Shown here in pieces: positions 31,059-64,000 of a stretch of DNA of 64,000 nt. Location: contig OX467087.1 of assembly GCA_950106755.1 (NCBI GenBank), positions 6,266,047-6,330,046 of the forward strand, given 5' to 3'. This DNA comes from Climacium dendroides (lineage: Eukaryota > Streptophyta > Bryopsida > Hypnales > Climaciaceae). Both the position numbers and the translations under genes were made by a program. Position 1 is the stretch's first letter; each line of letters begins with the position of its first letter. The notes beneath the pieces were generated by a model that saw nothing but the letters and a program-made list of their open reading frames with translations, was not told the origin of the DNA and did not search any database.

Positions 31059-33684
31059 ATGGAGAGCCGTTATTCTAACCCTAACCCTAGTGAAAAACGC
31101 AAGAGGAGCCCTAGCCCTACTGAAGCCATTCCGGCGCCTCCGACACGTGCCGCCAATGATGATCCAGGTTGGAAAGGTTCAGTACTAACGTATCTAGCGA
31201 TGCATTATGGTATAGACGTTGTACAAGAGAGTTTTCCAGGGTTTTCTGCTTTCCTTAATTGCAACTCTGATACTTTGAAGTCCTACGTTCAAGCCTGTTA
31301 TGAAGCGAAGTCTGACGGAGACAGGAAGGCGTGCAAGTCCATTTTGGATTCCGATTCCCCCAAGGTTTCCTCGAAGCTTTCCCCCAAGCTTGCTGTGGGT
31401 AGTAAGGTTAGAAAAAGCTTTTTGAAGGCTTTCTCTGATGAGTATAAAGATGATCGCTCCTGCTTGAAGACATTTACCAATTTTATTGACAGATGTGCAG
31501 CTAACTGGAGGCGCGGGAATTACCTTGCCCCCTATACGTCTCTTGTGCAAAGCTCAGGTACCGGGAAAAGCCGACTGGTGAAGGAATTTGCCAACGAACG
31601 GTATGTGATATACTGCTGTGTTAGAGAGAAGGGTAGTTCCGGCATTCCTGCGCGTTCCTGGATAGCGGACACCCTTCTCCCGGCTTCCGAGACAGGCGAT
31701 GACCATGAGAGATCGATGGGGTTCCTTCTTTATGCTTCATTTTTTTGTGCCTGCATGGATCATCTGGCCGATTTTGTGAAGAGCGGCGCAAACCGTACTG
31801 AGCGAGAATGGTGCAAGATGCAACTAATGGAGGAGGAGTCTGGACAGATCAATGTCAGTGGAGTTGCTTTTTGGAAGGAAATCCACGAGAGGATGACCGA
31901 ATTTCGAACGACTGTTCTTGGAGAAGGCCCTTTCGAAGAAGGGATACCATTCACGAATCTCTTAGAGTCCAAGGTACGATCGTCCTGTACGAAGCTCGTG
32001 GAAAGCTTCAGGATCTCTGGTTTAGACACAAAGGGTAAGGCGTTGCTTACCTTCGCACTGGACGAGTCTAAAAGCCTCCTTGGAGATTATGGTGCCACGA
32101 CACACTTCAGCATATTCCGGTGGATGGCCTCTTCTCTTGAGGAGGGCTGTGGCATCTTTATAGTACTTCTTGATACAACTTCTAAAATCAGCAACTTCAT
32201 GCCCTCCAAGATTCCAGATAAATCGTTCCGGTACAGTGAAAAGGGCAAGCAGCTGCTTCCAGCATTCTACGCAGTCGACACCTTCAATATCTTGGCTCCC
32301 AAGGAGAAGATTTGGACTGTGTTAGGTGATTCTCCTTGTGACTTGACAAGTGTGTTGCTCAAGCATTTCATGAAAGGGCGACCATTGTTTGCAAGTTGCA
32401 TTCAATCTGGGTCGGACGCCAAAGTTAGTGAAGTGGTGAGATTGGCTGATGTGGTGCAACTGGCTGTGGCGAAGTTACTTGGGGGAATCGCTGTAGAACA
32501 GGATATGCAAGTAAATACGGACCATAATCTAGCGGTTGCATTGCTTTCTGTGCGTGCCGCTGTTTTTGTTAAACCCCAGTCGGAGTTGGCATCGTCCTTG
32601 GTTGCCCAGCACCTTGGCATGTGCCTTGCTATTTCCTCTGACAGGCGCTTGGTGTTCACCGGGTATCCATCGGAACCAGTGCTGGCTGAAGCTGCATGTC
32701 GCATAATGAATCGACGGTCGAAGTTAGATTTGGGTGAAATCCTCGGTCCCATTTTACCTTACGTACGGGAGGGAATTGTTGAAGGGGGTGCACGAGGTGA
32801 GTTGGTGGCACGAATTCTTTTCCTCTTAGCTTGGGATCGCGCCTGCAAGAATGATACGTCTGTATACGAACCACGGTTCGCCATCTTCCGTGATTATGAG
32901 GTACTCTACACCAGGCCTCTAGTGGTGCGGGAGTTTCTACATTCCTTGGCTGACAAAGATCAATTCGATGATGCTCTTAAAGGGCAAATTGATCAGGAAG
33001 AAATGGAGAGGTTTCTGAAAGGGAGGGTATTCTTTACCCACTTTACCTCAGTCACCCGCAGTGTCCAACGGTCTGAATTGATAGATTTCTACGAGCGTGG
33101 TGTTGCCATTTTGTGCAAGCGTAATCAAGTGGCCGTTGACATGATAATTCCCGTGCGGTTATGTCAAGATGATATGTCGTGCATTCTGGTTCAGGTGCGT
33201 ACAGATGGAAATTACAAGTGGGCCAGCATGGCAGTTAGGCCCGAACGTGCCAGGTTTATCAACGGAGCCGGCGGACTATCCATACCTTGCTCTTTATCTT
33301 CAGCTTGGGTATAAAACTGCGAAAGTATGGAATCTCAAATATGAGCAGCACGATGTTCCTGTCTCTCGTGCAAAACCAAGCGCCAGAAGAGAAGCAAGCA
33401 AAAGCGATGAGGACCCCTTTCAAATGATTGTTGGCCTTTTCTCACTAAAGCCTGCGGCTTATCCTTGTCTTCGTGACGAAGTAAGAAGAGACTATGGAGC
33501 TACTGAGGATTCGCAGAATTCCAAGCATTTGTCAAGCGTTTGTCAAGCTTGGAGTGATCCGCTCTATTATGTTGAGAGCTATGAACCTGCGGCGTTGGGT
33601 GAAAGTACAATGAAACAGGCGAACTGCGACTTTGTGAAGCATACCTGCGTTCTCACCTATGCATCGAGTTCCTCTGGTAGTTAG
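31059..33684 (+). pseudogene. Crinkler-like P-loop NTPase gene, frameshifted near its 3' end
   Basis: The frame from ATG 31,059 is open for 751 codons and resembles the CRN-type ATPase proteins of fungi and oomycetes. Signs are a Ser/Pro-rich N-terminus (~1-35), a Walker A motif SSGTGKSRL (~165-173), a Walker B-like segment TFALDESKSLL (~331-341) and a conserved IFIVLLDTTSKISNF (~367-380) like a sensor strand. The frame ends at 33,314, but the expected C-terminal part, including YPYLALYLQLGYKTAKV, continues in another frame to TAG 33,682-33,684. The frame change lies between about 33,170 and 33,275. It could be a real frameshift, an assembly error or an unrecognised short intron. Total length would be about 870 residues. 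It is intronless in a window where other genes have introns, which fits transfer from another lineage. The biochemical role in the host is unknown. Confidence 0.7.
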
Positions 33685-37702: not shown

Positions 37703-39067
37703 GGTGGAGGCCAGGTAATTGGCCTTCGAGAGCTGCGGAGTCTTGCATGGCTTGACATGAGCAACATTCATTTTGCAACATGTTTCCAGGAAATTGGTCA
37801 GTTGACAAGGCTTGAGGTTTTGCGGTTGGGTACGAATTGCTCACCCTCAGAAAGTATAGAGCCACCGAATCTTGACCAATGCATTCACTTACAGGAGCTC
37901 GTGCTTGCATGCGCGTGTCTTGTATCATTCAGATTTGAGCAATTTAACATCGTTGAGGAAGATTCCCTTTTACGGATGCAGGAATGAAAAGAGTTAGTTG
38001 GATTGAGCTCACAAATGGCTTCCGTGCAGGAGCTCTTGTTGTTGGGTTGGCATTTGTTAAGCCAATTGCCTGGTCTGGGCGATGTGGTTTCGTTGCAACT
38101 ACTCATTGTTGAAGGTTGTAACCAGCTCACACAGTCTCCTGACCGACCTGACGTGCACAGGCTTACAAAGCTACGACGGTTGAATGTAAGGTGGAATGGA
38201 TTGCACAAGCTGCTCGGGTTGAACGACTCCATGCAGTTGGAGGAACTTGTTGTGTGCGGTTCTGCAATTGACGAGTTGCCCAATTTACACTTGTTGAGGC
38301 ATTTACAACAGTTGGAAATGGAATGTATCGAGTCTACGGTGATGCCGTGGTTTGGCAGCTTCATTGCCTTGGAAGCACTCGTCCTTCATAATTTGCCAGA
38401 GGTTACGGACATACCTGGCATGCGCTTGTTGACAAGGTTGAAAAGGCTGACAATATATTCTACCCGTAATCTATTACAGTTGCCTGAGTTGGGTGACTGG
38501 ATGGCATTACAATACCTCTGGCTACATGACTGGTGTAGTGTGGTAGGGAACCTTGAATTACCAGATCTTCACAACCTCATACACTTGGAAGTTTTGTGGA
38601 TTTCCGCAACCCCAATCAGGAGGTTACCAAGCTTGGAACGCCTTACGCAACTCAGGGAGTTGCGTTGCTCTGACACTTTGTTAGCGGAGTTACCCGTTCT
38701 CAATGGTTTGGACAAATTGGAGTCGATCAACCTTGGCAAATGCTTTGGGCTGATAAGCTTGGAGAAGTTGGGAACCTTGCCTGCATTGACAAGCCTGAAT
38801 GTTTCATTGTGTCCTAGTTTGACGAGATTGCCAGATTTGAGAGGCTGCAAGAGTATGGAGGATATCGAGTTTACTAGGAGTGGAGTGAGCCTGGGTCGCG
38901 AAGACATGAGGGCCCTGGCAACTTTACCTGCGCTCGACATGTGGGGTTGGGACGATGTTTGTGTGCCCTTTTTTGAGTTATTAGAAACGATGTCATTGGA
39001 TGAGGTCGTATTGCATTTGGAAGCAGAGCAAATGAAGTATTTCACCACGTTTCAGACAAGGACATGA
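37703..39067 (+). pseudogene. Orphan leucine-rich-repeat gene (NLR C-terminal type)
   Basis: One frame of 455 codons made of about 15-17 LRR units of ~23 residues, pattern L..L..L.L..C..L..LP.L. Examples are LRRLNVRWNGLHKLLGLND, LEALVLHNLPEVTDIPG and LRELRCSDTLLAELPVLNG. The spacing and the LP.L/C ends resemble LRR domains of plant NLR immune receptors. No TIR, coiled-coil, hydrolase or NB-ARC domain is found upstream; instead a MITE fragment stands at the left edge. TGA at 37,985-37,987 interrupts the frame (CGA before a C-to-T change), leaving an intact 354-codon piece from 38,003. There is no signal peptide or membrane segment. It is probably the tail of a broken receptor gene. Confidence 0.65.
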
Positions 39068-43786: not shown

Positions 43787-43831
43787 ATGTTCCATTGTAG
43801 CTTCCTATCTTATTCATTTAGTTTTTACATT

Positions 43832-46800
43832 AAAGTTCATTTTTCCATGAATCCTAATTATTTCAAAGATTTGCAACTTGTGTGTTATGTTTTCGGACAT
43901 GCTTCCACGTCAAAACGATTTTATTTTTTTGGTTTGGTTTCTATTAAATACAACATGATTTTTAGAGTCTTTTTTTTAAAACCCATTTCACTTGAAAAAG
44001 TGTGGGGAAGCAATAGGGTTCTCTTAAACTTCATTTTTCCATGAATCCTAATTAGTTCGAAGATTTGCAACTTGTGTGTTACGTTTTCGGACATACTTCC
44101 ACATCAAAACGATTTTATTTTTTTGGTTTGGATTCTATTAAATACAACATGATTATTAGAGTCTTTTTTTTAAAACCAATTTCAATTGAAAAAGTGTGGG
44201 GAAGTAATAAGGTTCTCTTAAACTTCATTTTTCCATGAATCCTAATTAGTTCGAAGATTTGCAACTTGTGTGTTACGTTTTCGGACATACTTCCACATTA
44301 AAACGATTTTATTTTTTTGGTTTGGATTCTATTAAATACAACATGATTATTAGAGTCTTTTTTTTAAAACCAATTTCAATTGAAAAAGTGTGGGGAAGTA
44401 ATAAGGTTCTCTTAAACTTCATTTTTCCATGAATCCTAATTATTTTGAAGATTTGCAACATGTGTGTTATGTTTTCGGACATGCTTCCACGTCAAAACGA
44501 TACAATTTAATGGTTTGGTTTCTATTAAATTCAACTTGAATTTTAGAGTCCTTTTTTTAAAACCCATTTGACTTGGAAAAGGGTGGGGATGCAATAGGGT
44601 TATCTTAAACTTCATTTTTCCATGAATCCTAATTAATTCAAAGATTTGCAACTTGTGTGTTACGTTTTCGGACATGCTTCCATGTCAAAACGATATAATT
44701 TATTGGTTTGGTTTCAATTAAACAGAGCATGATTGCTAGAGTCTTTTATTTTAAACACCTTTCAATGGAAAAAGTGTGGAGAAGCAATGAGGTTCTCTTA
44801 AAGTTCATTTTTCCATGAATCCTAATTATTTCAAAGATTTGCAACTTGTGTGTAATGTTTTCGGACATGCTTCCATGTCACAAACAATACAAATTAATGG
44901 TTTTACTTGTATGAAATACTACATCATTTTTAGGGTTTTTATTTTCAGATCCATTTCACTTCAAAAAGTATGGGGATGCGATAGGGTTGTCTTAAACTTC
45001 ATTTTTCTATGAATCCTAATTATTTCGAAGATTTGCAATTTGTGTGATATGTTTTCGGACATGCTTCCACGTCAAAACGATATAATTTATTGGCTTGGAT
45101 TCTATTAAACACAGTATGATTTTTAGAGTCTTTTTTTTAAAACCCATTTCACTTGAAAAAGGGTGGGGAAGCAATAGGGTTCTTTTGAACTTCATTTTTC
45201 CATGAATCCTAATTATTTCAATGATTTGCAACTTGTGTGTTATGTTTTCGGACATGCTTCCACGTCAAAACGATATAATTTATTGGTTTGGATTCTATTA
45301 AACACAGCATGATTTCTAGAGTGTTTTATTTAAAACGCACTTCAATTGAAAAAGTGTGGGGAAGCAATAGGGTTCTCTTGAACTTCATTTTTCCATGAAT
45401 CCTAATTATTTCAAAGATTTGCCACCTATGTGTAATGTTTTCAGTCATGCTTCCACGTCAAAACGATATAAGTTATTGGCTTGGATTCTATTAAACACAG
45501 CATCAGGTTTAGAGTATTTTTTTTAAAACCCATTTCATTTGAAATAGTGTGGGGAAGCAATAGGGTTCTCTTAAACTTCATTTTCTCATGAATCCTAATT
45601 ATTTCAAAGATTTGCAATTTGTTCGTTATGTTTTCGGACATGCTTCCACGTCAAAACGATATAATTTATTGGCTTGGATTCTATTTAACACAGCATCAGG
45701 TTTAGAGTATTTTTTTTAAAACCCATTTCACTTGAAATAGTGTGGGGAAGCAATAGGGTTCTCTTAAACTTCATTTTCTCATGAATCCTAATTATTTCAA
45801 AGATTTGCAATCTGTTCGTTATGTTTTCGGACATGCTTCCACGTCAAAACGATATAATTTATTGGCTTGGATTCTATTTAACACAGCATCAGGTTTAGAG
45901 TCTTTTTTTTAAAACCCATTTCACTTGAAATAGTGTGGGGAAGCAATAGGGTTCTCTTAAACTTCATTTTCTCATGAATCCTAATTATTTCAAAGATTTG
46001 CAATTTGTTCGTTATGTTTTCGGACATGCTTCCATGTCAAAACGATATAATTTATTGGCTTGGATTCTATTTAACACAGCATCAGGTTTAGAGTATTTTT
46101 TTTAAAACCCATTTCACTTGAAAAAGTGTGGGGAAGGAATAGGGATCTCTTAAACTTCATTTTTCCATGAATCCTAATTATTTCGAAGAATTGTCACTTG
46201 TGTGTAATGTTTTCCGACATGCTTCCATGTCAAAACGATATAATTTAATGGTTTGGATTCAATTAAACACAACATCAGGTCTGGAGTATTTTTTTAAAAC
46301 CCACGTCAATTGAAATAGTGTGGGGAAGAAATAGGGTTCTTTTAATCTTCATTTTTCTATAAATCCTAATTATTTTGAAGATTTGCAATTTGTGTGTTAT
46401 GTTTTCGAACATGCTTCCACGTCAAAACGATATAATTTATTGGCTTGGATTCTATTGAACACAGCATCAGGTTTAGAGTCTTTTTTTTAAAACCCATTTC
46501 ATTTGAAAAAGTGTGGGGAAGCAATAGGGTTCTCTTAAACTTCATTTTTCCATGAATCCTAATTATTTCAAAGATTTGCAAATTGTGTGTTATGTTTTCG
46601 GACATGCTTCCACGTCAAAACGATATAATTTAATGGTTTGGTTTCAATCAAATAGATCAGGATTTTTGGAGTGTTTAATTTTGAACCCCTTTCATTTGAA
46701 AAAGGGTGGGGAAGGAATAGGATTCTCTTAAAGTACATTTTTCCATGAATCCTAATTATTTCAATGATTTGCAACTTGTGTGTTATCTTTTCTGACATGC

Positions 46801-49800
46801 TTCCACGTCAAGAACAGTAGAAATTAATGGTTTTACTTGTATGAAATACTACATCATTTTTAGAATCATTTTTTTCATATCCATTTCACTTTAAAAAGTG
46901 TAGGAATGCAATAGGGTTCTCTTAAACTTCATTTTTCCATGAATCCTAAATTATTTCGAGGATTTGCAACTTGTGTGTTATGTTTTCGGACATGGTTCCA
47001 CGTCAGAGCGATACAATTTATTGGTTTGGTTTCTATTAAATACAGCATGATTTTTAGAGTCATTTTTTTAAAACCCATTTCAATTGAAAAAGTGTAGGGA
47101 AGCAATAGGGTTCTTTTAAACTTCATTTCTCCATGAATCCTAATTATTTCGAAGATTTGTACCTTGTGTCTTATGTTTTCGGACATGCTTCCATGTCAAG
47201 AACAGAAGAAATTAATGGTTTTACTTGTATGAAATACTACATCATTTTTAGGGTTCTTATTTTCAAATTTATTTCACTTCAAAAAGTATGGGGATGCAAT
47301 AGGGTTGTCTTAAACTTCATTTTTCTATGAATCCTAATTATTTCGAAGATTTGCAACTTGTGTGTTATGTTTTCGGACATGGTTCTACGTCAAAACGATA
47401 CAATTTATTGTTTGGGATTCCATTATTCACAACATTATATGTACAATATTTTTTTTTAAACCCATTTCACTTGAAAAAGTGCGGGAAAGCAATAGGGTTC
47501 ACTTAAAGTTCATTTTTCCATGAATCCTAATTATTTCAAAGATTTGCAACTTGTGTGTTATGTTTTCGGACATGCTTCCACGTCAAAGCGATACAATTTA
47601 TTGGTTTGGTTTCTATTAAATACAACATGATTTCTAGAGTCTTTTTTTTAAAACCCATTTCAATTGAAAAAGTGTCGGGAAGCAATAGGGTTCTCTTAAA
47701 CTTCATTTTCCTTGAATCCTAATTATTTCGAAGATTTGCAATTTGTGTGTTATGTTTTCGGACATGCTTCCACGTGGAAACGATATAATTTAATGGTTTG
47801 GATTCTATTAAACACAACATCATATTTAGGGTATTTTTTTTAAACCCATTTCAATTGAAAAAGTGTGGGGAAGCCATAGGGTTCTCTTAAACTTCATTTT
47901 TCCATGATTCTAATTATTTCGAAAATTTGCAACTTGTGTGTTATGTTTTCGGACATGTTTCCACGTCAAAGCGATACAATTTATTGGTTTGGGTTCTATT
48001 ATTCACAACATCATATTTAGAGTATTTTTTTTTAAACCCATTTGACTTGACAAAGTGCGGGAAAGCACTAGGGTTCTCTTAAACATCATTTTTCCATGAA
48101 TCCTAATTATATCGAAGATTTGCAACCTGTGTGTTATGTTTTCGGACATGCTTCCACGTCAAAGCGATACAATTTATTGGTTTGGTTTCTATTAAATACA
48201 ACATGATTTCTAGAGTCTTTTTTTTAAAACCCATTTCAACTGAAAAAGTGTCGGGAAGCAATAGGGTTCTCTTAAACTTCATTTTCTCATGAATCCTAAT
48301 TATTTCAAAGATTTGCAATTTGTTCGTTATGTTTTCGGACATGGTTCCACGTCAAAGCGAAACAATATATTGGTTTGGTTTCTATTAAATACAGCATGAT
48401 TTTTAGAGTCATTTTTTTAAAACCCATTTCAATTGAAAAAGTGTGGGGAAGCAATAGGGTTCTCTTAAACTTCATTTTCCTTGAATACTAAGTATTTCGA
48501 TGATTTGCAACTTGTGTGTTATGTTTTCAGACATGCTTCCATGTCAAGAACAGAAGAAATTAATGGTTTTACTTGTATGAAATACTACATCATTTTTAGG
48601 GTTCTTATTTTCAAATTTATTTCACTTCAAAAAGTATGGGGATGCAATAGGGTTGTCTTAAACTTCATTTTTCTATGAATCCTAATTATTTCGAAGATTT
48701 GCAACTTGTGTGTTATGTTTTCGGACATGGTTCTACGTCAAAACGATACAATTTATTGTTTGGGATTCCATTATTCACAACATTATATGTACAATATTTT
48801 TTTTTAAACCCATTTCACTTGAAAAAGTGCGGGAAAGCAATAGGGTTCACTTAAAGTTCATTTTTCCATGAATCCTAATTATTTCAAAGATTTGCAACTT
48901 GTGTGTTATGTTTTCGGACATGCTTCCACGTCAAAGCGATACAATTTATTGGTTTGGTTTCTATTAAATACAACATGATTTCTAGAGTCTTTTTTTTAAA
49001 ACCCATTTCAATTGAAAAAGTGTCGGGAAGCAATAGGGTTCTCTTAAACTTCATTTTCCTTGAATCCTAATTATTTCGATGATTTGCAATTTGTGTGTTA
49101 TGTTTTTGGACATGCTTCCACGTCGAAATGATACAATTTAATGGTTTGGTTTCATTTAAATGCAACATGATTTTTAGAGTCTTTTTTTTAAAATTGAAAA
49201 GTGTGGGGAAGCAATAAGGTGCTCTTAAACTTCATTTTTCCATGAATCCTAATTATTTCGAAGATTTGCAATTTGTGTGTTATGTTTTCGGACATGCTTC
49301 CATGTCAAAACGATATAAGTTATTGGTTTGGAGTCAATTAAACATAGCATAATTTCTAGAGTATTTTTTTTAAAACCCATTTCAATTGAAAAAGTGTAGG
49401 GAAGCAATAGGGTTCTCTTAAGCTTCATTTTTCCATGAATCCTAATTATTTCAAAGATTTTCAACTTGTGTGCTATATTTTCGGTTAGGCTTCCACGTCA
49501 AGAACAATATAAATTGAATGGTTTTACTTGTATGAAATACTACATCATTTTTAGAGTCTTATTTTTCATATCCATTTCACTTCAAAGAGTGGGGATGCAA
49601 TAGGGTTCTCTTAAACTTCATTTTCCTTGAATCCTAATTATTTCGAAGATTTGCAATTTGTGTCTTATGTTTTTGGACATGCTTCCATGTCAAAACGATA
49701 TTATTTAATGGTTTGGATTCTTTTAAACACAACATCATATTTAGAATATTTTTTTTAAACCCATTTGACTTGGAAAAGTGTGGGGAAGCAATAGGGTTCT

Positions 49801-51945
49801 CTTAAACTTCATTTCTCCGTGAATCCTAATTATTTCAAAGATTTGCAACTTGTGTGTTATGTTTTCGGACATGCTTCCACGTCAAGAACAGTAGAAATTA
49901 ATGGTTTTACTTGTATGAAATACTACATCATTTTTAGAGTCTTTTTTTTCATATCCATTTCACTTCAAAAAGTGTAGGGATGCAATAGGGTTGTCTTAAA
50001 CTTCATTTTTCCATGAATCCTAATTGTTTCGAAGATTTGCAACTTGTGTGTTATGTTTATGGACATGGTTCCACGTCAAAGCGATACAATTTATTGGTTT
50101 GGTTTCTATTAAATACAGCATGATGTTTAGAGTCTTTTTTCTCAAATCCATTTTACTTGAAAAAGTGTGGGGAAGCAATAGGGTTCTTTTAAACTTCATT
50201 TTCCCATGAATCCTAATTATTTTGAAGATTTGCAATTTGTGTGTTATGTTTTCGGACATGCTTCCACGTCAAAATGATACAATTTAATGGTTTGGTTTCA
50301 TTTAAATGCAACATGATTTTTAGAGTCTTTTTTTTAAAATGGAAAAAGTGTGGGGAAGCAATAAGGTGCTCTTAAACTTCATTTTTCCGTGAATCCTAAT
50401 TATTTCAAAGATTTGCAATTTGTGTGTTATGTTTTTGGACATGCTTCCACGTCAAAACGATATAAGTTATTGGTTTGGATTCAATTAAATACAGCATAAT
50501 TTCTAGAGTATTTTTTTTAAAACCCATTTCAATTGAAAAAATGTGGGGAAGTAAAAGGGATCTCTTAAACTTCATTTTCCTTGAATCCTAATTATTTCGA
50601 AGATTTGCAATTTGTGTGTTATGTTTTCAGACATGTTTCCATGTCAAAACGATATAATTTAATGGTTTGGATTCTATTAAACGCAACATCATATTTAGAG
50701 CATTTTTTTAAAAACCCATTTGACTTGAAAAAGTATGGGGAAGCAATAGGGTTGTCTTAAACTTCATTTTTCCATGAATCCTAATTATTTCGAAGTTTTG
50801 CAACTTGTGTGCTATGTTTTCGGACATGCATCCACGTCAAGAACAATACAAATTAATGGTTTTATTTGTATGAAATACTACATCATTTTTAGAGTCTTTT
50901 TTTTCATATCCATTTCACTTTAAAATGTGTAGGGATGCAATAGGGTTGTCTTAAACTTCATTTTTCCATGAATCCTAATTATTTCAAAGATTTGCAACTT
51001 GTGTGTTATTTTTTCGGACATGGTTCCACGTCAAAGCGATACAATTTATTGGTTTGGTTTCTATTAATTACAGCATGATTTTTAGAGTCTTTTTTTTAAA
51101 ACCCATTTCAATTGAAAAAATGTGGGGAAGCAAAAGGGTTCTCTTAAACTTCATTTTCCTTGAATCCTAATTATTTCGAAGATTTGCAATTTGTGTGTTA
51201 TGTTTTCGGACATGTTTCCATGTCAAAACGATATAATTTAATGGTTTGGATTCTATTAAACGCAACATCATATTTAGAGCATTTTTTTAAAAACCCATTT
51301 GACTTGAAAAGTGTGGGGAAGCAATAGGGTTCTCTTAAACTTCATTTTTCCATGAATCCTAATTATTTCGAAGTTTTGCAACTTGTGTGCTATGTTTTCG
51401 GACATGCATCCACGTCAAGAACAATACAAATTAATGGTTTTACTTGTATGAAATACTACATCATTTTTAGAGTCTTTTTTTTCATATCCATTTCACTTTA
51501 AAAAGTGTAGGGATGCAATAGGGTTATCTTAAACTTCATTTTTCCATGAATCCTAATTATTTCGAAGATCTGCAACTTGTGTATTATGTTTTCGGATATG
51601 GTTCCACGTCAAAGCGATACAATTTATTGGTTTGGTTTCTATTAATTACAGCATGATGTTTAGAGTCTTTTTTTTAAACCCATTTCACTTGAAAAAGTGT
51701 GGGGAAGCAATAGGGTTCTCTTAAACTTCATTTTTCCTTGAATCCTAATTATTACGAAGATTTGCAATTTGTGTCTTATGTTTTCGGACATGCTTCCACG
51801 TCAAAAACGATATAAGTTAATGGTTTGGTTTCTATTAAGTACAGCATCATTCCTAGAGTATTTGTTTTGAAACCCATTTCAAATTTTCAATTGAAAAAGT
51901 GTAGGAAAGCAATAGGGTTCTTTTTAAATAATTTTTTCAATGAAT
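43832..51945 (+). repeat. ~194-bp satellite array, about 42 monomers
   Basis: Successive ATGAATCCTAATTATTTC landmarks fall at 43,847, 44,041, 44,235, 44,429 and 44,622, giving a 193-194-bp period that continues to about 51,945. Each monomer has CATGCTTCCACGTCAAAACG and GGGGAAGCAATAGGGTTCTC-like blocks. At least two subfamilies alternate: type A has CGATATAATTTATTGGTTTGG; type B has GAACA-TA-AAATTAATGG followed by TTTTACTTGTATGAAATAC. Local amplification is visible: a ~535-bp block near 47,198 recurs at 48,546 (offset 1,348 bp, about seven monomers), and a three-monomer block near 50,581 recurs at 51,160. Short minus-strand frames recurring in each monomer are by-products. Confidence 0.9.
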
Positions 51946-51949
51946 CCTA

Positions 51950-53995: not shown

Positions 53996-56140
53996 GTTAG
54001 GGTTTCTATTATTTTGTTGTATTTTGCTGTATGTCTGTGTTTTACTGTGTCTTCGTGTTTTGCTGTTTCGTGTTATTATGCAGTGTATGTTCTTGTTTTG
54101 TTTTCGTGTTTTTTGTTTTTTCAGTTTTTACAGTAGAGCAGAGGTGTCGGATTGTGGGATTGGAGTGAGGGAGCAGGATCTTCCATACTCACAACGGAAG
54201 GTGGAACTTGGAGTGCTCGCTAAGAGAGCTGCGCGATTGCAAAAGACATTGTGGGTTGGAGGAGAGTGAGGGAGCAGGATCTTGCATTGCTTGCAGCAGC
54301 AGAGGGCGCCGGAATACAGGGCACAGCAGCAGCGGTCGCAGCATTGCAGGTATCCTTTTCTTCCTTATGCTTTCTAGTGTTTACACATGTATGGTTTCGG
54401 GTTTTTGAATGGTCCTGTTCACAGGTCTTGAACGTAAGAATTGTCTAAAGACACCCACTTGCTTGTGTAGCTCTTCTGCATGGATGGACAAATTCGTAGG
54501 TGAAAAACAGAAAGTAAGAAACAAAAGTTTAAGAAAAAAAAAAAAAAATGGCTGCTGAATCGGATTAGAGGGAGGAACTGTACCGTGTTCTGGACGATGA
54601 AACACTTTGTTCCATATGTGCTTTCGACCTCGCCTGCGAGGGCACTAATTTCTTTCATGAAAAAATTCGAATTGCGTACGTTTCCACTCTGAAGGATTTC
54701 ACACGCAAAAACCTGAACCCTAAAACCCCAACAACGGACATCGCAGATTGAAATCGGGGCTTAGAACGAGATAGATTCCCTTGCTTCAGCAAACTGTAGT
54801 AATGGAACTGAATCGATAGCGCAATCTCCCCATTGAGTAATTTCGAAATGCTTAGGCTTACGAGTTGTGTATTTTTACGAGATGCTTACAACACAAACGG
54901 TGTCTCAACGATAGTAGAAGCGCAAATTAGGTCATCGTCACTACTTCGCACCTCGTAGGTTTGCATGTTATCCAAGAGTGGCTGCATGCTGGTCACCTAG
55001 ATATCCAGCCAACTGAACACCAGCTAGCGGAAAGTCCTCAGATTTTCCCGGTCAACGTAACTCAGCATTGCCCTACATCAAACATGTATTGTGAGGCTGA
55101 TCATATTTGCTAGCTTTGGGTTTGATGCTTGGTTAAAGTGCGTTTTGTAAGTGGATTGTAACTCAGCATAGGTTCAGAGGGAAGCATTGATTTTGATCAT
55201 CGAAGATTGATCAACGGTGATTGGAATTGTTCACCTACTGAAGTTCTGTTGAATTGCAAGGGCGCCTTGTTTCGAAGCTTGCCATACTTGCAGTGATGTA
55301 GGTTTTTGTGAAAAAATGGTCTTCAATTCAAAAAAATTGAGGATGAAATCGCATTGTGTTGGGTGCCCAAAGAATCTTGTTGAAATTCAATTATTGTGGA
55401 TAAGAGTGGATAAGATTTGCTTTCTGATAAGAGTTGTGTATTGTATTGGGAGGTATTTGCTCCCAACAGATTGGATCTTTCTTTTTAATTGTTGGAAGGA
55501 ATCTAGTTGCTTGGAATATGTTTGCAGTTTGTTTCTTGGCATTTGGTTTGCAATGTAAGTTTTTAAAAATTGGTTTGTTTTTTGCATTTTAGATTGACGA
55601 TTGTAGCATTGGAGTTACAAGATTGTGGAGTCCATAATAAGCAGCTACGCTGAAAGTAGGAGCTAAGTTGAGGCTGAAGTTGCATATTGCTTGCTTGTAG
55701 AAACTCAGGTATGTATTAATTTCAATTCTCTTGCACCATCTGTGCTTTGAATAGTGATTTTTGTGATTGTTGTAAAGCTAGCTGCAATGTTTAATGAATG
55801 TGTTAGTAGGGTTTAAGTTGCAGGATGTATCGTGCGCATACGTCCCGTTTTTAGTTCTCTTGAGGTTTGTTGATTTCTGTTAGAATTCATGGTTTGGAAG
55901 TTGCTAGATGAAAACATGCTTGTTTGAGATGTTGTAGGTTTGCACAATTACTTTTTGGTTTTAGGTTTAGGTTGTTTGCTGGTTTGAGATGTTGTTTTTG
56001 ATTTTTTTGGCGTTTTTCAACTCTTGAATCTGTTGAAAATGTGGATAATTTTGCAAGTTTTGGAGATTAATCTATCTGCATTGCATTTCAAGGTCCTCAT
56101 TTTTCAATTCCCTAGGTGAATTATAATGCACAGGACTTTG
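53996..56140. other. No firm gene; exon-like traces on both strands
   Basis: On the plus strand 54,130-54,350 gives an Ala/Gly-rich peptide before a GT donor (GCATTGCAGGTATCC). On the minus strand ~55,075-54,895 reads AMLSYVDRENLRTFR, then LVFSWLDI, then VTSMQPLLDNMQTYEV, with TAG codons at the two joins. 54,660-54,545 reads KEISALAGEVESTYG. These look like eroded exons of an unrecognised gene; none is supportable as a CDS. Confidence 0.3.
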
Positions 56141-56141
56141 T

Positions 56142-56290
56142 TTAGGGTTTAGGGTTCAGAAATTGGCATTCATTGTTTAGGGTCCAGTGCTTAAGTTCCA
56201 GGGTTTGTTTAGGGTTCAGTGCTTAGGGTCCAGAGTTTCTTTAGGGTTCATTGCTTAGGGTTTAATGTTTCCTTAAGGTCTAGGAATTAA
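56142..56290 (+). repeat. Degenerate telomere-like TTTAGGG repeats
   Basis: GTTTAGGGTTTAGGGTTCAG and further GTTTAGGGT, CTTAGGGTCCAG and TTTAGGGTTCA words. The unit matches the plant telomere repeat, strongly diverged, far from any chromosome end visible here. Confidence 0.55.
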
Positions 56291-56392
56291 AATTCAGAAT
56301 GTCATGAAAAGAAATGATCGGCCACAACCACATAAATTCCCCGGAATCAGCCCAATACTACCCGGGTATCATCCTGTCACCCGAAATTCCTA

Positions 56393-57235
56393 AACGTACC
56401 ATGATTGTAAGGCACCCGAACCAAACTACAATTCAGGTCGCATCGACCTGAATTGCATATCCTCTTCAAACACATCCCCTTCTAAAATCTATGCTTTGGT
56501 CCGTGCAAGTTTATGGATAATTTTCAAATGAGATTAACATGCATTTCAGGCCGGTCCAACTTGAAATGTACACCTACTAGCATTGTCTGTACAAAGAAAG
56601 CAACTAAATAGCAGGCAATTGCACTAACATCTCAAAAGACAAATAACATCGTCGTCAAAATTCAATGCAGATCAGGTCGGTTCAACCTAAACTGCAAAGA
56701 AGACCCTATGCAATCTAACACGTCAAATAAGTTGTGGTACCAACAAATAAATTACTATCATGATATTAGACACCTATTTATAAACAAATTGACCAATAAA
56801 TAAATTCTTTAATGTACCGGGAATGTACGTCACATGACCCACACTACAATTCAGATTGCATTGACCTAAATTGCATAGCCCCATAAAACATATCCTCTCC
56901 TAAATCTATGCTTTTGTCCGTGCTATTTCATGGATAATTTTGACATGAGATGAACATGCATTTCAGGTCGGACCGACTTGAAATGTACACCTACTAGCAT
57001 TGTCAGTACAAGGGAAGCAACTGAATAGCAAACATTATCACTAACATTCCAGAAGAGAAATAACATCATCGTCAAAATGAAATGCAAATCAAGTCGGTCC
57101 GACCTAAACTGCAAGGAAGACCCTCTGCAATCTGGTACAACAAATACGTTTTCCCTTAACCAACATATATATTTATATGAGGATATTAGACTCCTAGTAT
57201 AATTAACAAATTGATCATTAAATACATTTTTAATA
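56393..57235 (+). repeat. Tandem duplication of a ~418-bp unit upstream of the DGQHR gene
   Basis: The block starting ACGTACCATGATTG (56,393) recurs about 418 bp later. Both contain ACTACAATTCAG, CTATGCTTT.GTCCGTGC, ACCTACTAGCATTGTC and three palindromes each at equivalent places. It is probably 5' non-coding DNA of the element at 57.6-63.3 kb. Confidence 0.75.
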
Positions 57236-57587
57236 AACATCCATTTACCAACAATAAACCTAATGAAATTACCGCATGCAATTTAGGTCGGGCCGACCTA
57301 AACTGCCAGTTCTAAAGTGAGAACAATACGTATTAGGACGATCCGATAACATTAATCAATAACACTGAGGTCATTACAGTAGCAAAAATATTTGAATATT
57401 CCGACTAGAACTTCAGGTCGAGTCGATTTGAAGCGTATGAAGCAAAACAAACCGAGTCCAAGTAGATCAAACACATAGAAGATGAAATGTAGAAGCTCCA
57501 TGTACTGGCATTTAGGTCGAGTCGATTTGAATCAATAGAGCAACAACTCTTGTTGTAACAACATCCCGTTTGAAAAATGAATGCAGA

Positions 57588-60500
57588 ATGGATGACCAAG
57601 TTGAGAAGCTGGAGGCCTTCTACGTACGCTGTGCGCACGAATCCTCTAGAGAGGAAGGGGACAACTTTGACAATGACGGAGACTACTGGGAATTCAAAAA
57701 TCCCGAGAAGGTTGAGAGTTGAAGTCTCTACATGATTCCATTCAAGAACCTCATTTGCTTCGCTGCAAAGTTCAAAGACACGGACCATTTCTTCAACATA
57801 TCATTTGATGAGAAGATAAAGGACGTCGCCCACGACAGTGGTCCATTCTTGAAAATTCGCTACGTTACAGTTGTGACAGGAAAGCCTGAAAGCGAGCAGT
57901 ACCACTTCACTATTCGCTTGGACTCCTCAAGATGTGCCTTCAACATATCGTACTTCCTCTCAATGCTGGAACCGACTGAATACAGAACAGAGATACCCGA
58001 CCTTGAGAAGAAAGTTGACCACAACTACTTCAAAACAAAGGACGGGAAGTTGGCAACGGGGAAGGCCCTATACTCTCGCTTGAAGACACTCCTGAACGAC
58101 TTCACAATTCTGAAGACGAAACTTGAGCTCAAGAAGAAAGACATGATTGTCAGAACTATCTCTCAGGAGTTTCCAAGTAACGTGGAGGGACAGAGCTCAA
58201 TGGGTACACCTGGAACCCAACAGAGTCGGGGGACAAGAAAGTCCAAGCAGTCTGCAACTCCACCACCAGCTTCCAGGCTAAGTAAGATGGCATCAACCTC
58301 AACAGCAGTAGCAGCAGCGTAAGATCCTAATGCAGTTTTACTAGGGAAGCTGAGTTTTGTGTCCACGGTAACTGAGGTCTCGCTCCCTTATAACGCCAAA
58401 AAGTCGCACGATTACATTGCGTCCGCGGAAGCATACAAGGCCTACTGGAAGCACTGCACTGACGCTTACATCTTTGGCTTGGAGGATAAGAAGACGATTT
58501 CCATTGAGCAGCTCATCAAGGCCCCAGAGGATTTAAACATCCATAGCCATGAGATGAAGCTCGCGGAAGACATGATGACATACCTTTGGGAAATGCCAGA
58601 TAAGTCCACAAAACAAACATTGTGCGTCATGCCAGTGGACTACTCTGAGAAGCCAAAGCCGGAGGATTGGCTAGCACTAGAAAGGAAGAACTTCTACATC
58701 ATCGATGGGTAGCATAGTGTGACTGCCAGCAAAATGATGGTGGACCAAAATCTTGACAAAGAGATTGTCAAGAACTTTCGTCAATGGGATTGCTACGTGG
58801 TCTGGTCCACAGATGCTCAAAAACTACGGGACATATCAGCGTACTACAATAGGGTCAACCACTTTGTGGCGCAGAAGCCCTCGTGGTCAACAAACATTTT
58901 GGGAGCCAGAAAAGTGTGGGAACTGATGGGAAGGCCACGCAATCCGAAGGAAGCCGCCCCAATAGCAACAATGTCCAATGTTAGACGAAACACTGAGAGT
59001 GCAGTAAATAAAAAGAAATTCATGGTAAGAGATTTAGGTCGAGTTGACTTGATCTATGAATGATAAGGTGATGCTTTGATCTTTGTCACGTGATAATGAA
59101 TGAAGTGTTCGAAGTAAGGAGAACAATAAGGTGCATTTGACGTTAAAAGTGAAATGTGTAGTTTAAGTCGGTTCGAGCTGAATAAAGAGCTCCAAATTGA
59201 CTGTGAATTATAAAATTATTTTGCAGGAATTCTCATCGGCAATGTACAAGCGGTTCGCTCTGCTAGATGTACTAAAGGCCTAGAAGACTGCGAAAGGCAA
59301 GGACGCCAAGGAGAAGCTCGAGATCTGAAACGAGATGAAGATAATCACAGCTCCAGACGACATGTACAACCTGTGGAGCGAGGTTATCTCTAGTGCTGCG
59401 CATGGGGAGTTGATAGACCCTAATACAAGACTGAAGTACAACGAGAAGGCAACTTGGAAGCCCGAGCAAGGGAATCTGACGCATGAGTTTTTCAAAGTGA
59501 TTGGAAACCTTTCCTTCAATGACTTGTCGAAGCTGGCCGAATATATTCTGCATCAGAATCTAGGGAGCAAGAACAAGGAGTACCCGAAGGTCACAATCAA
59601 GCTTCTCTCTGCTGTATAGGAGAGCTACTACACTACTAGGGAGTGGGTGGAGAGAAGGAAGCGCAAGCACAAGGTGAAGATGGAGCTCCACGCCCTGGAC
59701 ACAAGCCTCGGGCTCATGACCTCCTTAAACGAGCTGAACCACAAGAAGTGGAGGGAGTTCAAAGGAAGTCAGAACTTCACGAGTGCCACCATGAACGTGC
59801 TGCTAGAGCAGCCAGGGAACGAATACTAGATGGAGGCGAAGTAGTCAAGAGCAAAGGGGAAGAGCGCTGAGGAGATGTTAATGTACGCGGCTGAGTTCTT
59901 TCGGGTCTTCCTGTAGTAGAGAAACAACTTTGTGCCTCCAAAATCCACTGCATACTATCATCCATATGACGTTATGTATAAGACGCACCAGAATTGGCCT
60001 AGAGGCATGCTCACTACAAAGAACGTGAAGGACATCAAGCTTGGAGTGTGGGACCTGCGTTATACCCCGAATGTGGTGTCAAAGTCTAAGTGTACACCAG
60101 TCGATCCATACTTCGCTGCAGTTGTCGAGTCCTCCCAAGAAAAGGGCCAACCTTTTCTCGAGGACATTTTAGTGTGGGTGCTCATTTGTTTCGACCTCAC
60201 CGAGCAAACGCAGACACTCCACTTCATAGACAGCAATCCCCCGTTGAAGGAGTATTCCATGAGTTTCTCTAACTACATGCTCTCACCCAATGAGCGTATC
60301 GGTGACTTGTCTACACGAAGCAAGAAGGCGGTGGAACCAATTTATCTGACCATTCTACAGAGCCCAAGCAACGCTAGGACGGTGAAGATGAGGTCTTTCT
60401 ATGATGCTCCCAACACTGAAACATTCACGAAGCTTGGGACTTACAACGAGCTAGAGTTCAGGATTAACAATATTGAGCTACGGATGGAGTTCTTCCTCAA

Positions 60501-61882
60501 TCTCGTGAGGAAATTCTGCGCTCCTGGACAAAGCATAATGTCATTCTTTGCTGGGTCAAAGTTCACATGTGCTACGATGGTAAGCTTGAATGCAATTAAT
60601 TCCACAATGTCATGTTTTGGCTATGGTTAAGGTCGATTTGACCTGAATAAAATGAACATGTATATCGTTCTTGTAATTATAAGGTGATAGAAGTCAGGTC
60701 GGGTCAACCTGACTTGTAGCATTGGCTAGAGTGAGTTGTTCCGCAGGTCGGCTCGACCTGACCGGTGGCATTGAGTGTCCAAGCCTTAGCTTTAGGTCGG
60801 GTCGACCTGACACAACCTACTGCTGACATTACTTGAAATGCCATTGTATCCTCATTAGGGAATTTACATACCATTGTAGTCTGATGGCGTTGTGTGTGAC
60901 TTTGCAGATGAGTGGGGTTAATGTGTTTGCTATGGGGGACTTGGAGGAGAGTGACCAGTGGACTGAAATTGCAACCACTGCAAAGAAATTGGATAATAAC
61001 GATTTTCTTCCAGAGGGATACTTTGTTGATGAGGGCAAATTCCCACGCCGACCATCAGGGTCAAGCACGCCATCGTCATCAAAACACAAGGGGAAGGCAG
61101 CTGGAGAGGCAAGCACGCCGTCCGGTCGGAGGTCATCTATAATCATAGTGTGTGAGTCCTCCGACAGTGATGGGGCAGCCGGTGATGACGACGACGACGA
61201 CGACGTTCCCATGGATCGGAGCACCCCTCTAGTGATCCGCTCTCAAAGCATCCGAGGGTCATCAACGTCGTCGGGTTAACCACCTGACACCTCTACCATG
61301 CCGTCTCTAACCTCTAAGGAGAAGCGAAAGAGGGCAAGATTGCAAGCTGATGACAATTATAAGGCCGAAATTGCAGAGCTCAAGAAGAGGCGGGAACAAG
61401 ATCAGATGATGTTTGACAGGCAGGCCAGGGAGATGGCGGAGTCGCGACAGTTTATGGTGGCAATGTCACAGAAGAACGACTCCAAACTTGACGCCATTAT
61501 CAATAGTCTTGGTGGAGCCATGCCTCTGGCATCTGTGTAGCCGTCTTAGGCTGACTAGGAGCTTTTGCTGTAGGGAGCGCCAGCAAGACCAACAATGAGT
61601 GGATCCTTAAGCTTACCCTCCACTCCACGATTGATTGGGGTGCCTTCTGTCTCTCTCACTCCTCTTGCAGGTTCTGTAGATCCTCCAGCTCCTCCTAATG
61701 AGGAGTGCCCCTCGACCCCTACACCTCCACCTGATGACGAGGACACGACACGAGTTCCACTTAATGGTGGCAGGTTCTCAGAGACCTTGGAGTCTAGCCC
61801 AAAGATGCCCGCGGATCCTGCCATCGCCATTGATGATGATTGGAGTCATGCATTGGATGGCCAGGATGCACCATCAAATTGA
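57588..61882 (+). pseudogene. Large protein with DGQHR/ParB-like and methyltransferase-like parts, many stops
   Basis: One frame of 1,255 codons runs from ATG 57,588 (MDDQVEKLEAFYVRC) to TGA 61,880 across two in-phase introns (59,025-59,226 and 60,580-60,907), with no indel but 15 premature stops. Order: unrecognised N-terminal domain (~1-190); Ser/Thr/Gln-rich linker; a DGQHR-family signature at 58,695-58,735, reading IIDG-stop-HSVTASK with TAG in place of the Gln codon, followed by VVWSTDAQKLRDISAYYNRVN; a Lys-rich middle; a region (59,932-60,960) with FIDSNPPLKEYS and FFAGSKFTCATM followed after the intron by VNVFAMGD, like motif I of a beta-class DNA methyltransferase; an Asp-rich acidic stretch (~61,165-61,215); a coiled coil (61,300-61,520); and a Pro/Ser-rich tail. 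The DGQHR call is good and the methyltransferase call weak. It is probably a transposon-type gene inactivated by deamination. Confidence 0.6.
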
Positions 61883-62127
61883 TCATACAATCACTCGATG
61901 TCATTTGTATAGAATTAGCTCGACTCGAGTTGATTTGTGTCATAGGTTGTATTTAGATAGAGGCCCTTAGTGTGGGAGACAGAACTTTTTGATAGAAAAC
62001 AATTTTTTGGCAAATCCATATCTTCATGTAAGATGATGACTTTTTTATACTCAATTTTATTAATCAATTATACAGATTTTCAGTAAAAATTTTAAGTCTT
62101 ATTTGTCTGGCCCTTCCTAAATTGCAG

Positions 62128-63313
62128 AACCTCCTCTGATGGCTATTCCAATTCGACCGAATGAACTTTGAAAATCTATTGCTCCTGTACAGCATGTACA
62201 AAGTCCACCATTTGGTTGTGGCACTATGGAAGCTACAAGTGGAGGTGTACCAGAATCTGAGTCCATGCATTTAGATGATGACGTCTCTATTCCTGACGTT
62301 CATCTTCTGGAGATTGAAATGTTGGACCTCGTTGAACTAACGTTGCCTTTGCGGGAAAAGGTATCCTCTTGCCCATGTGTCCTTGATCTCTGCACTAATA
62401 GGTACCTCTATATTCATAGTCTGCAACGTTTCGATTTTGATTTTTTCCCTAAGTTTCGAAATGTGTCAGTGCAGCTTAGTAACTGTCTACACATTTGTCC
62501 GTTTGATAGTAGGGATCGGTTCCCCCATCTGAATGTGAAGATACGTCGAAGGATGTTGAGATTCCATTGACGTCTAGGGTGACCGTCGCCGAGAAGTGGA
62601 TGAATGTTGTCCTGGACTTGAATGGAGTCTTGTGTGTCTGTGAAGACGTCAAGTACAAGGGGTAGACTGTGCACGTTGGGAATGCAGACCAACCGCACTC
62701 CGCCACAATTCCTACGATTGTGGGACCGAAGGCGGTGTTTATCCACTTGAATTGCGCTCATTTTCTTCGTGAGCTAGGATTGATAGCACACGTTTCTATT
62801 TGGAGCTCCATAAAGAAGTTTACCGTTCAAAAAATCGTCGATTATCTTTTTGTCGGTCTGGATAAGCCCCGCATTATACTTGGGCAGGAGTCTTGCACGA
62901 CGCTCAAGTGTGAGGAACAAGGCCGGATAGTCACATTCAGGGAGCCAGGCACCACCAAGGACCTGTTCGTGAAGGATGCGAACACCTTGTTTAATAATTT
63001 CAATGGGCAATTTCTTTGAGAGAATACTGTCATAGTTGACGACAGTCCTATGAAGCACTTCATGAACAAGTCGGAGAACGTCGTTCTCCCCATCAGTTGG
63101 TTTCCCAAGGGTAACGGCCCTAGGGACTCATATTTGGATATGGTTCTTTTGCCCTGGCTCAGGCGACTTCACGTAGTTCGAGATGAAGGGTTGAAATCAT
63201 TTTGCAAGAGTAGTGTGGAGAAGATTGGACGGAAGATGTTGTATGACGAGAGAAATCGTGGCATGTACAATAGTCTTATGGATGCAGTTAGAGTGTCTTC
63301 AGTATATCGATAA
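62128..63313 (+). pseudogene. FCP1/SCP-like HAD phosphatase gene, broken
   Basis: Two exons join in phase 0: 62,128-62,360 (acidic, EIEMLDLVELTLPL) and 62,513-63,313, with a 152-bp intron. The second exon carries the FCP1-homology (NLI-interacting factor) phosphatase domain. MNVVLDLNGVLCV holds the nucleophile Asp but has Asn at the usual general-acid Asp of DLDxTL. FLRELGLIAHVSIWSS and the following VQKIVDYLF form the middle block, and VIVDDSPMKHFM is the distal metal-binding motif. Premature stops: TGA 62,169-62,171, TAG 62,663-62,665 and TGA 63,017-63,019, all explicable by C-to-T. The frame ends at TAA 63,311-63,313. It follows the DGQHR gene in the same orientation by ~245 bp and has palindrome sites on both sides, so it probably belongs to the same element. 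The first exon starts in mid-codon, so an earlier exon or fusion to the upstream gene is possible. Confidence 0.62.
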
Positions 63314-63433
63314 CGCACTGCATTTCATTGCATGTTCATCAACCACGTCGATGCAATGACTGTATCATCGTCTAATTGGCGTTACGAGAGGGTAGTTTAT
63401 TTATTGCTTTAGTTCAGGTCGAGTCGTGCTGAA

Positions 63434-64000
63434 TGGCATGTGCATTGTTGTGAGCACTTTTTTACCCACCCATGGTAAACTAGCGTTGCACAACTAGGTT
63501 CTTAGTATTGTTTTATAAGTTTTGTCATAAGGGTGCCTAGCGTTAATTCATTGTGCCTTCCAAGCAATGGATCTTTTCTAACTCCTATATGTGAAAAACA
63601 AACAAAACAACAAGAAATTCTAAATGACCATAAGTTTTACCCTTTTATCTCAACTAACTAAGCCAATGTGGTTTTTTATTCAAAATGAATTCAGTCTTGA
63701 TGTATCATTTTTAAGTGATAGAACATGTTATGCCATTTCTAAAAATATAAAACTCGACCTCATCCGAGCTTTCTGACAATAGTTATGGAGGGATGAAGTT
63801 TGACCGCTAATCGGTTCATCAAACTTCATCCATTGATTTCTACTAATCTACCTTATAAATTTACTTGAGATTTGACTTTTGTGCTCTGAACTCTATTTAC
63901 TATTTGACTTTCTAATATGGTTGACTTTGGATGATTTATCTAACTTTCATCCATTTTGACCCCTAAACTTCATCCTTTCATATCTTGGTCATTGTAACTC
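63434..64000. other. No gene seen
   Basis: AT-rich DNA. No palindrome of the 56-63 kb family occurs after 63,433, so the element may end near here, but no terminal repeat was recognised. Confidence 0.35.

Follow-up and report, generated by a model that had tools for sequence, protein, structure and literature searches.

Two kinds of described system come closest to the locus examined here. In Arabidopsis, VANC proteins bind motifs that are repeated in the upstream DNA and introns of their own VANDAL element, and counter silencing (PMC5735166; PMC10398659). Their binding to coding stretches is much weaker; the motifs vary from family to family and have multiplied through tandem duplication (PMC5735166). 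In bacteria, ParB dimers load at 16-bp palindromes (parS), and the ParB-type protein VirB relieves silencing from parS-like sites (PMC10770331). A survey of the ParB-CTPase fold describes frequent ties of the fold to mobile elements and fusions with lineage-specific domains, with sulfiredoxin as its commonest eukaryotic case; no word beginning plant, moss or transpos occurs in the main text (PMC12704722). Here, we describe 17 palindromes dispersed through the non-coding parts of a single intron-bearing gene in a 64,000-nt stretch of Climacium dendroides (contig OX467087.1; the whole stretch is hereafter called the window), and propose that they may be recognition sites of a multi-copy plant element, bound by a protein of predicted ParB-type fold that the element itself encodes.

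The locus resembles VANDAL21/VANC21 (and VANC6) in having many short motif copies that lie mainly in non-coding DNA, including upstream DNA and introns, in their amplification by tandem duplication, and in a family-specific motif (PMC5735166); that the motif repeated in its non-coding DNA and introns is element-specific is judged from the window and two relatives. The VANC motifs differ in being YAGTATTAY sequences arrayed in one orientation, and the string palindrom occurs 0 times in the text of PMC5735166. The VANC domains named there, DUF1985 and DUF287, had no Pfam match in the window or its relatives. With bacterial ParB-parS, Noc and KorB, the locus shares a predicted ParB-type fold and dispersed palindromes of similar length (PMC10770331): 17 in the window and 15 in two relatives lie near the gene for this fold, whose protein may load at them. 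It differs from these systems in that the gene is eukaryotic and intron-bearing, with relatives fused to a NIF phosphatase. The Shigella VirB protein, a transcriptional anti-silencer, likewise pairs a ParB-type protein with parS-like palindromes (PMC10770331), but it is a bacterial regulator opposing H-NS, and its likeness to the element protein would be one of fold and sites. Judged from sequence, the site set would work like those of VANC and of parS/virS, but without the VANC protein domains. The original prediction, which could name no family of plant transposons carrying sites of this kind, overlooked VANDAL21/VANC as a functional precedent, albeit one whose motifs are not described as palindromic in that text.

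Palindromes in the non-coding parts of one gene

Each palindrome consists of a six-base arm, a three-base spacer and a complementary arm (AGGTCG-N3-CGACCT), and the 17 copies span positions 56435-63430, within the last ~8 kb of the window. Four cores are perfect, 14 of the 17 have at most two mismatches and three have three mismatches (56548, 56853 and 61917). The spacer measures 3 nt at every site, which upholds one of the two lengths originally proposed (two or three) and not the other. Allowing up to two mismatches and spacers of 2-4 nt, we found 16 placements window-wide, 14 in the cluster and two outside it (13598 and 42326), compared with a mean of 1.95 and a maximum of 4 over the whole length of 20 first-order Markov sequences. 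The exact core form was observed four times, against 0.00 in 100 shuffles. At three mismatches, chance placements are frequent (60 in the whole window versus 27.6 expected), so the three weakest sites need other support: those at 56548 and 56853 lie in register within a 417-bp tandem duplication, and that at 61917 resembles the core type of the two relatives described below. The exact 21-nt palindrome also matches three IMG/VR contigs (L001-L003).

The gene runs from 57588 to 63313 on the forward strand. The sites, which are given without strand, the duplication and the parts of the gene are as follows.

56435..56449, site 1: perfect core, arms of 12 nt (56429-56455)
56548..56562, site 2: 3 mismatches
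56674..56688, site 3
56853..56867, site 4: duplicate of site 1, decayed, 3 mismatches
56965..56979, site 5: duplicate of site 2
57091..57105, site 6: duplicate of site 3
57285..57299, site 7: perfect core
57415..57429, site 8
57514..57528, site 9: closest to the ATG at 57588
59036..59050, site 10: intron 1, core start at intron position +12
59165..59179, site 11: intron 1
60630..60644, site 12: intron 2
60696..60710, site 13: intron 2
60745..60759, site 14: intron 2, perfect core
60794..60808, site 15: intron 2, perfect core
61917..61931, site 16: probable intron after exon 3; AGCTCG-ACT-CGAGTT, 3 mismatches
63416..63430, site 17: 3' of the gene
56384..57234, + strand: tandem duplication, unit ~417 bp, carrying sites 1-3 and 4-6
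57588..59024, + strand: exon 1, decayed, 3 in-frame stops
59025..59226, + strand: intron 1 (GTAAGA...GCAG), sites 10-11, position conserved in relatives
59227..60579, + strand: exon 2, 7 in-frame stops
60580..60907, + strand: intron 2 (GTAAGC...GCAG), sites 12-15, position conserved in relatives
60908..61882, + strand: exon 3, interrupted by 5 stops, with an uncertain 3' end; contains stretches that are acidic, proline-rich or helical
62513..63313, + strand: last exon, with a NIF/FCP1-like phosphatase domain (62567-63019) and stops of its own

None of the 17 sites is exonic, although exons make up ~69% of the span (the uncertain 270-bp exon counted); under independent placement this has P = 2e-9, rising to 7e-8 once the three duplicated copies are removed. 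Two three-mismatch placements do fall in exons (58285 and 59349). Introns 1 and 2 hold two and four sites, respectively; nine are upstream of the ATG used, at up to 1.15 kb from it, another falls in a probable third intron and the last is 3' of the gene. The palindromes are thus genuine, concentrated on the gene and outside its exons, as predicted. The duplicated units are 85% identical over 249 nt, or 80% over 435 bp in another alignment.

Exons 1-3, when joined, contain 15 in-frame stops ahead of the last one. Eleven are TAG, and a TAG within a conserved motif (IIDG*HS) occupies the position of a Q in the relatives that cover it. The window copy is dead, and its decay fits the loss of methylated cytosines, which would turn CAG into TAG; the palindromes show a like bias, 18 of their 24 core deviations being C>T or G>A. 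Because its relatives are multi-copy and this copy is decayed, we regard the gene as part of a multi-copy, decaying family that appears to behave like a mobile element.

Sites in relatives of the gene

A search with query residues 250-900 returned six Physcomitrium patens proteins that are 39-43% identical to the query. Three of the six (1489-1551 aa) carry an FCP1/NIF phosphatase domain, located near the end in the two that were scanned. The P. patens relatives are multi-copy and up to 1551 aa long, and the aligned copies are 91-92% identical to one of them, P0001. A wider search with exon 1 gave 57 proteins, with two clusters of 61 and 70 member sequences; exon 1 of one relative, P0010, is 81% identical to that of the window. 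No relatives were found among viral contigs.

Two relatives with DNA came from a scan of prokaryotic genome contigs: L004 (CADCWO010000269.1) and L005 (CADCWO010000243.1), both filed under the cyanobacterial metagenome-assembled genome (MAG) AVDCRST_MAG81. Both appear eukaryotic: the gene is split by GT-AG introns, and L005 also has a NIF exon. They are probably moss DNA from an environmental sample that contaminates the public MAG. Their exon-1 proteins are 34% (L004) and 33% (L005) identical to P0010. Counting sites at no more than one mismatch, we found eight palindromes in L004 and seven in L005, of the form AGCTCG-N3-CGAGCT. All 15 are outside exons, and 14 have the spacer AGT or ACT. Ten fall in mapped introns; the remaining five come after the stop that closes the exon 3 frame and before the next exon. 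Weaker placements include one with two mismatches in exon 2 (L004 3191) and three with three mismatches, all coding (L004 2410, L004 4972 and L005 1811); decayed-looking sites near L004 1433 and L005 4800 were noticed by eye and left out of the count. In these two relatives, palindromes therefore accompany the gene too; their absence around other copies had been named in advance as evidence against the original prediction.

Between the window and these two contigs, the core differs by a two-sided, pair-preserving change at pair 3/13 (AGGTCG versus AGCTCG), and within L004 and L005 it is nearly fixed. Site 16, the sole window site with a compensated core change (G3C/C13G), resembles the L004/L005 form. 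This difference bears on whether the palindromes are sites for a host transcription factor, or an enhancer, that the element has captured. Short palindromes upstream and in introns would fit such an origin, but the core follows the element family, whereas a conserved host factor suggests constancy, and we consider it quite improbable.

Four sites hold equivalent places in L004 and L005. Over the central 21 nucleotides, one of the four is unchanged between the contigs and the other three differ at the middle base alone, where AGT alternates with ACT. The rest of the alignment is 64% identical around intron 1 and 58% around intron 2, so that these sites form near-identical islands inside diverged introns. 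Of 81 site columns aligned on the 3' side, 61 agree, because L004 5991 is unmatched in L005; L005 1571 likewise has no counterpart in L004.

The predicted frame of many protein relatives runs beyond exon 1 into intron 1, producing peptide tails. For 33 tails, we computed scores with a matrix derived from 16 of the window's palindromes (the first intron-1 site omitted), with 500 shuffles each and with tail starts set by hand at a conserved V (the GT of the donor; I in P0030). The window motif was encoded in 26 of the 33 at P<0.01, with the core starting at intron position +12 in 19 of these, as in the window. Because the tails share ancestry, this shows retention rather than 26 independent events. 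In 25 of 33 cases, the tail scored higher than any exon placement within the same protein, and two placements ahead of a tail scored at least 12, both in P0008 (one upstream of the ATG-type Met, one exonic). Residues 6-12 of P0008, a read-through ahead of the ATG-type Met, read FSSYRPK and are compatible with a palindrome directly 5' of the start codon. Seven tails did not reach this level (P0009, P0013, P0036, P0039, P0044, P0055 and P0058). One of them, P0044, has a genuine site of the other core type, visible in L005, whose first intron encodes the tail of this 98% identical relative; the agreement confirms the peptide-tail approach. The tails of P0043 and P0056 were recognised but too short to score, and further matches of the wider search had no recognised tail. 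A motif-blind palindrome test on the tails lacked power: three of 34 fell below P 0.05, two at places other than the motif, and the window's known site scored 0.18. A core AACTCG/CGAGTT, first deduced from QL[DE]SS-stop peptides, was dropped, as L005 DNA reads AGCTCG/CGAGCT.

Constraint on the core and symmetry of the outer arms

The outer arms had been claimed to change from site to site while staying complementary, and we chose positions 7-12 following that claim. As a control, left and right arms were re-paired between sites. The set comprised 25 sites (14 from the window, eight from L004 and three from L005), after removal of the window's three duplicates and of the four L005 sites with an equivalent in L004. 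At positions 7-12, 105 of 150 pairs were complementary versus 87.6 expected (P 1.6e-4), confirming the co-variation with independent relatives. The window sites gave 63 of 102 versus 53.0 (P 0.004; 0.005 or 0.03 without one or the other duplicate set). There was no excess at positions 13-16 (P 0.36), and we give no interpretation to positions 17-20 (P 0.047). T/A covariation at position 9 in L004/L005 (P 0.089), complementarity of the spacer ends (8 of 14 versus 6.0) and positions 7-16 in L005 alone (P 0.07) were not significant.

The core behaved differently from the outer arms. Positions 1-6 were complementary in 130 of 150 pairs versus 129.4 expected; in the window, 80 of 102 core pairs were complementary versus 80.7 after re-pairing, and only one of 23 changed pairs was compensated. 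Because the core arms show no excess of co-variation, we conclude from these comparisons that the core acts as a sequence signal.

These results bear on the idea that hairpins are selected, in intronic RNA (for splicing or RNA binding) or as DNA cruciforms, with sequence secondary. The outer-arm co-variation favours it, as do perfect arms of up to 16 nt in L004, the middle-base flips at three of four equivalent sites, which spacer inversion would give, and the intronic position of seven of the 17 window sites (six in introns 1 and 2, one in the probable intron) and ten of the 15 in L004/L005. At the window sites, C>T changes also exceed G>A changes by 12 to 6, and on the sense strand a C>T change still allows a G-U pair; the imbalance is not significant (P 0.24). 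However, the core is stricter than a hairpin needs: it is nearly fixed in L004/L005, 22 of the 23 core pairs that have changed in the window lack compensation, and its deviations are mostly the C>T or G>A changes described above. Nine window sites, moreover, lie upstream of the ATG used and one 3' of the gene. We therefore consider it unlikely that pairing is what selection mainly maintains, as the original prediction had suggested.

The symmetry could also have arisen without function, through neutral spread of tiny self-complementary units or through template switching that perfects chance palindromes. Outer-arm symmetry and middle-base flips fit template switching, and the 417-bp duplication and the unmatched sites at L005 1571 and L004 5991 agree with such an origin. 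Yet equivalent sites are near-identical in diverged introns, exons are site-free, and distant relatives re-use the same intron position, and we rate a functionless set as very improbable.

A candidate binding protein and a proposed role

The protein of exon 1 has a predicted ParB-type fold; by collinearity with the fold in P0010, it would correspond to ~58482-58868 in the window. The label DGQHR given to this gene in the original prediction found no family match in our searches, and the domain was placed instead by predicted fold. Profiles of exons 1 and 2 matched no PDB sequences, and neither NCBIfam nor PHROGs yielded an informative match to exon 1. A long model based on P. patens was discarded for low confidence. 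For a DNA-reading domain (a helix-turn-helix in ParB), there was no Pfam match above cut-off. The NIF domain of the window (PF03031, E 4.5e-4) scores 20.4 bits, below the Pfam cut-off of 21.8, and its relatives score 54-56 bits. The end of exon 2 weakly resembles motif I of DNA N4/N6-methyltransferases by eye. PF01555 was the sole Pfam match of L005 exon 2 (E 0.027, below cut-off) and matched exon 2 of neither the window, P. patens nor L004, with no PDB match; chance-like matches score as well (Tugs in P0001, E 0.0034).

Alternatively, the palindromes could be cis signals for transposition or replication of the element, like subterminal transposase-binding repeats. Many copies in flanks and introns, a multi-copy family and a self-encoded candidate binder agree with this, and exon 2 of L004 alone has a weak, sub-threshold match to PF09039 (the Mu transposase DNA-binding subdomain, E 0.069). 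But the sites also occupy central introns instead of lying just near the ends; comparing 55700-56460 with 63300-64000, we found no terminal inverted or other terminal repeats and did not locate the ends of the element; and the proteins encoded in the window and its relatives have no transposase domain above the Pfam cut-off. We regard this role as decidedly unlikely.

We favour, with middling confidence, the reading that a multi-copy plant element carries these palindromes as scattered sites recognised by their sequence and bound by a dimeric factor, most likely the element's own ParB-fold protein, with an anti-silencing role and with outer arms templated through hairpins. A dimer of the ParB-fold protein would bind the palindromes, and binding along the promoter and introns would allow the protein to coat the element, in the form of a clamp or an array, and prevent silencing, in a VANC- or VirB-like manner. 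The NIF phosphatase domain perhaps ties the protein to RNA polymerase II. The core arms shift together between families, as would be expected from a drifting dimer specificity. Dimer binding leaves the outer-arm symmetry and the middle-base flips unexplained. Correction of imperfect palindromes through hairpins yields both, and templated correction of this kind may be the simplest added process keeping the outer arms symmetric. A hairpin-related process would be needed for the outer arms only.

More tentatively, the locus could be a eukaryotic counterpart of ParB-parS, a possibility we hold as rather doubtful. Here, the ParB-fold protein of a nuclear plant element, with its NIF phosphatase and perhaps a dead methyltransferase, would load at palindromes in its own promoter and introns, spread and stop silencing; protein and palindrome would co-evolve, so that each family marks only itself, and the symmetry would again be hairpin-templated. 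If true, an element family unrelated to the Arabidopsis VANDALs would share with them a self-encoded anti-silencing system, and the ParB-type fold, in eukaryotes mainly sulfiredoxin, would act on palindromic DNA in the nucleus. The outer-arm symmetry would serve, within a eukaryotic genome, as a natural record of changes linked to hairpins. Near-identical copies occur in the genetically tractable P. patens, which makes tests of binding and methylation practical. We found no paper describing the element by title and start of abstract, a search that covered non-subscription papers, and a P. patens transposable element paper contains neither FCP1 nor palindrom in its text (PMC7466625).

Several other features were observed. 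A degenerate TTTAGGGTTCAG minisatellite, telomere-like, lies directly upstream of the element (56140-56280), and a TAGGGTTTGGTCTAAG-rich stretch was seen by eye upstream of the gene in L004. Elsewhere in the window, two closely similar open reading frames (ORFs) lie on opposite strands (7038-7592, - strand; 12482-13597, + strand), the longer without a Pfam match at E 0.1. In a 751-aa ORF (31059-33314, + strand), which has no Pfam match at E 0.1, a GTGKS motif resembling a P-loop can be seen by eye. A 465-aa ORF (28332-29729, - strand) matches DDE_Tnp_4 (PF13359, E 1.4e-27) and is presumably a Harbinger-type transposase. A 354-aa ORF (38003-39067, + strand) encodes leucine-rich repeats (PF12799, E 1.7e-11), and positions 43830-51949 hold a satellite of ~42 copies of a 193-bp unit.

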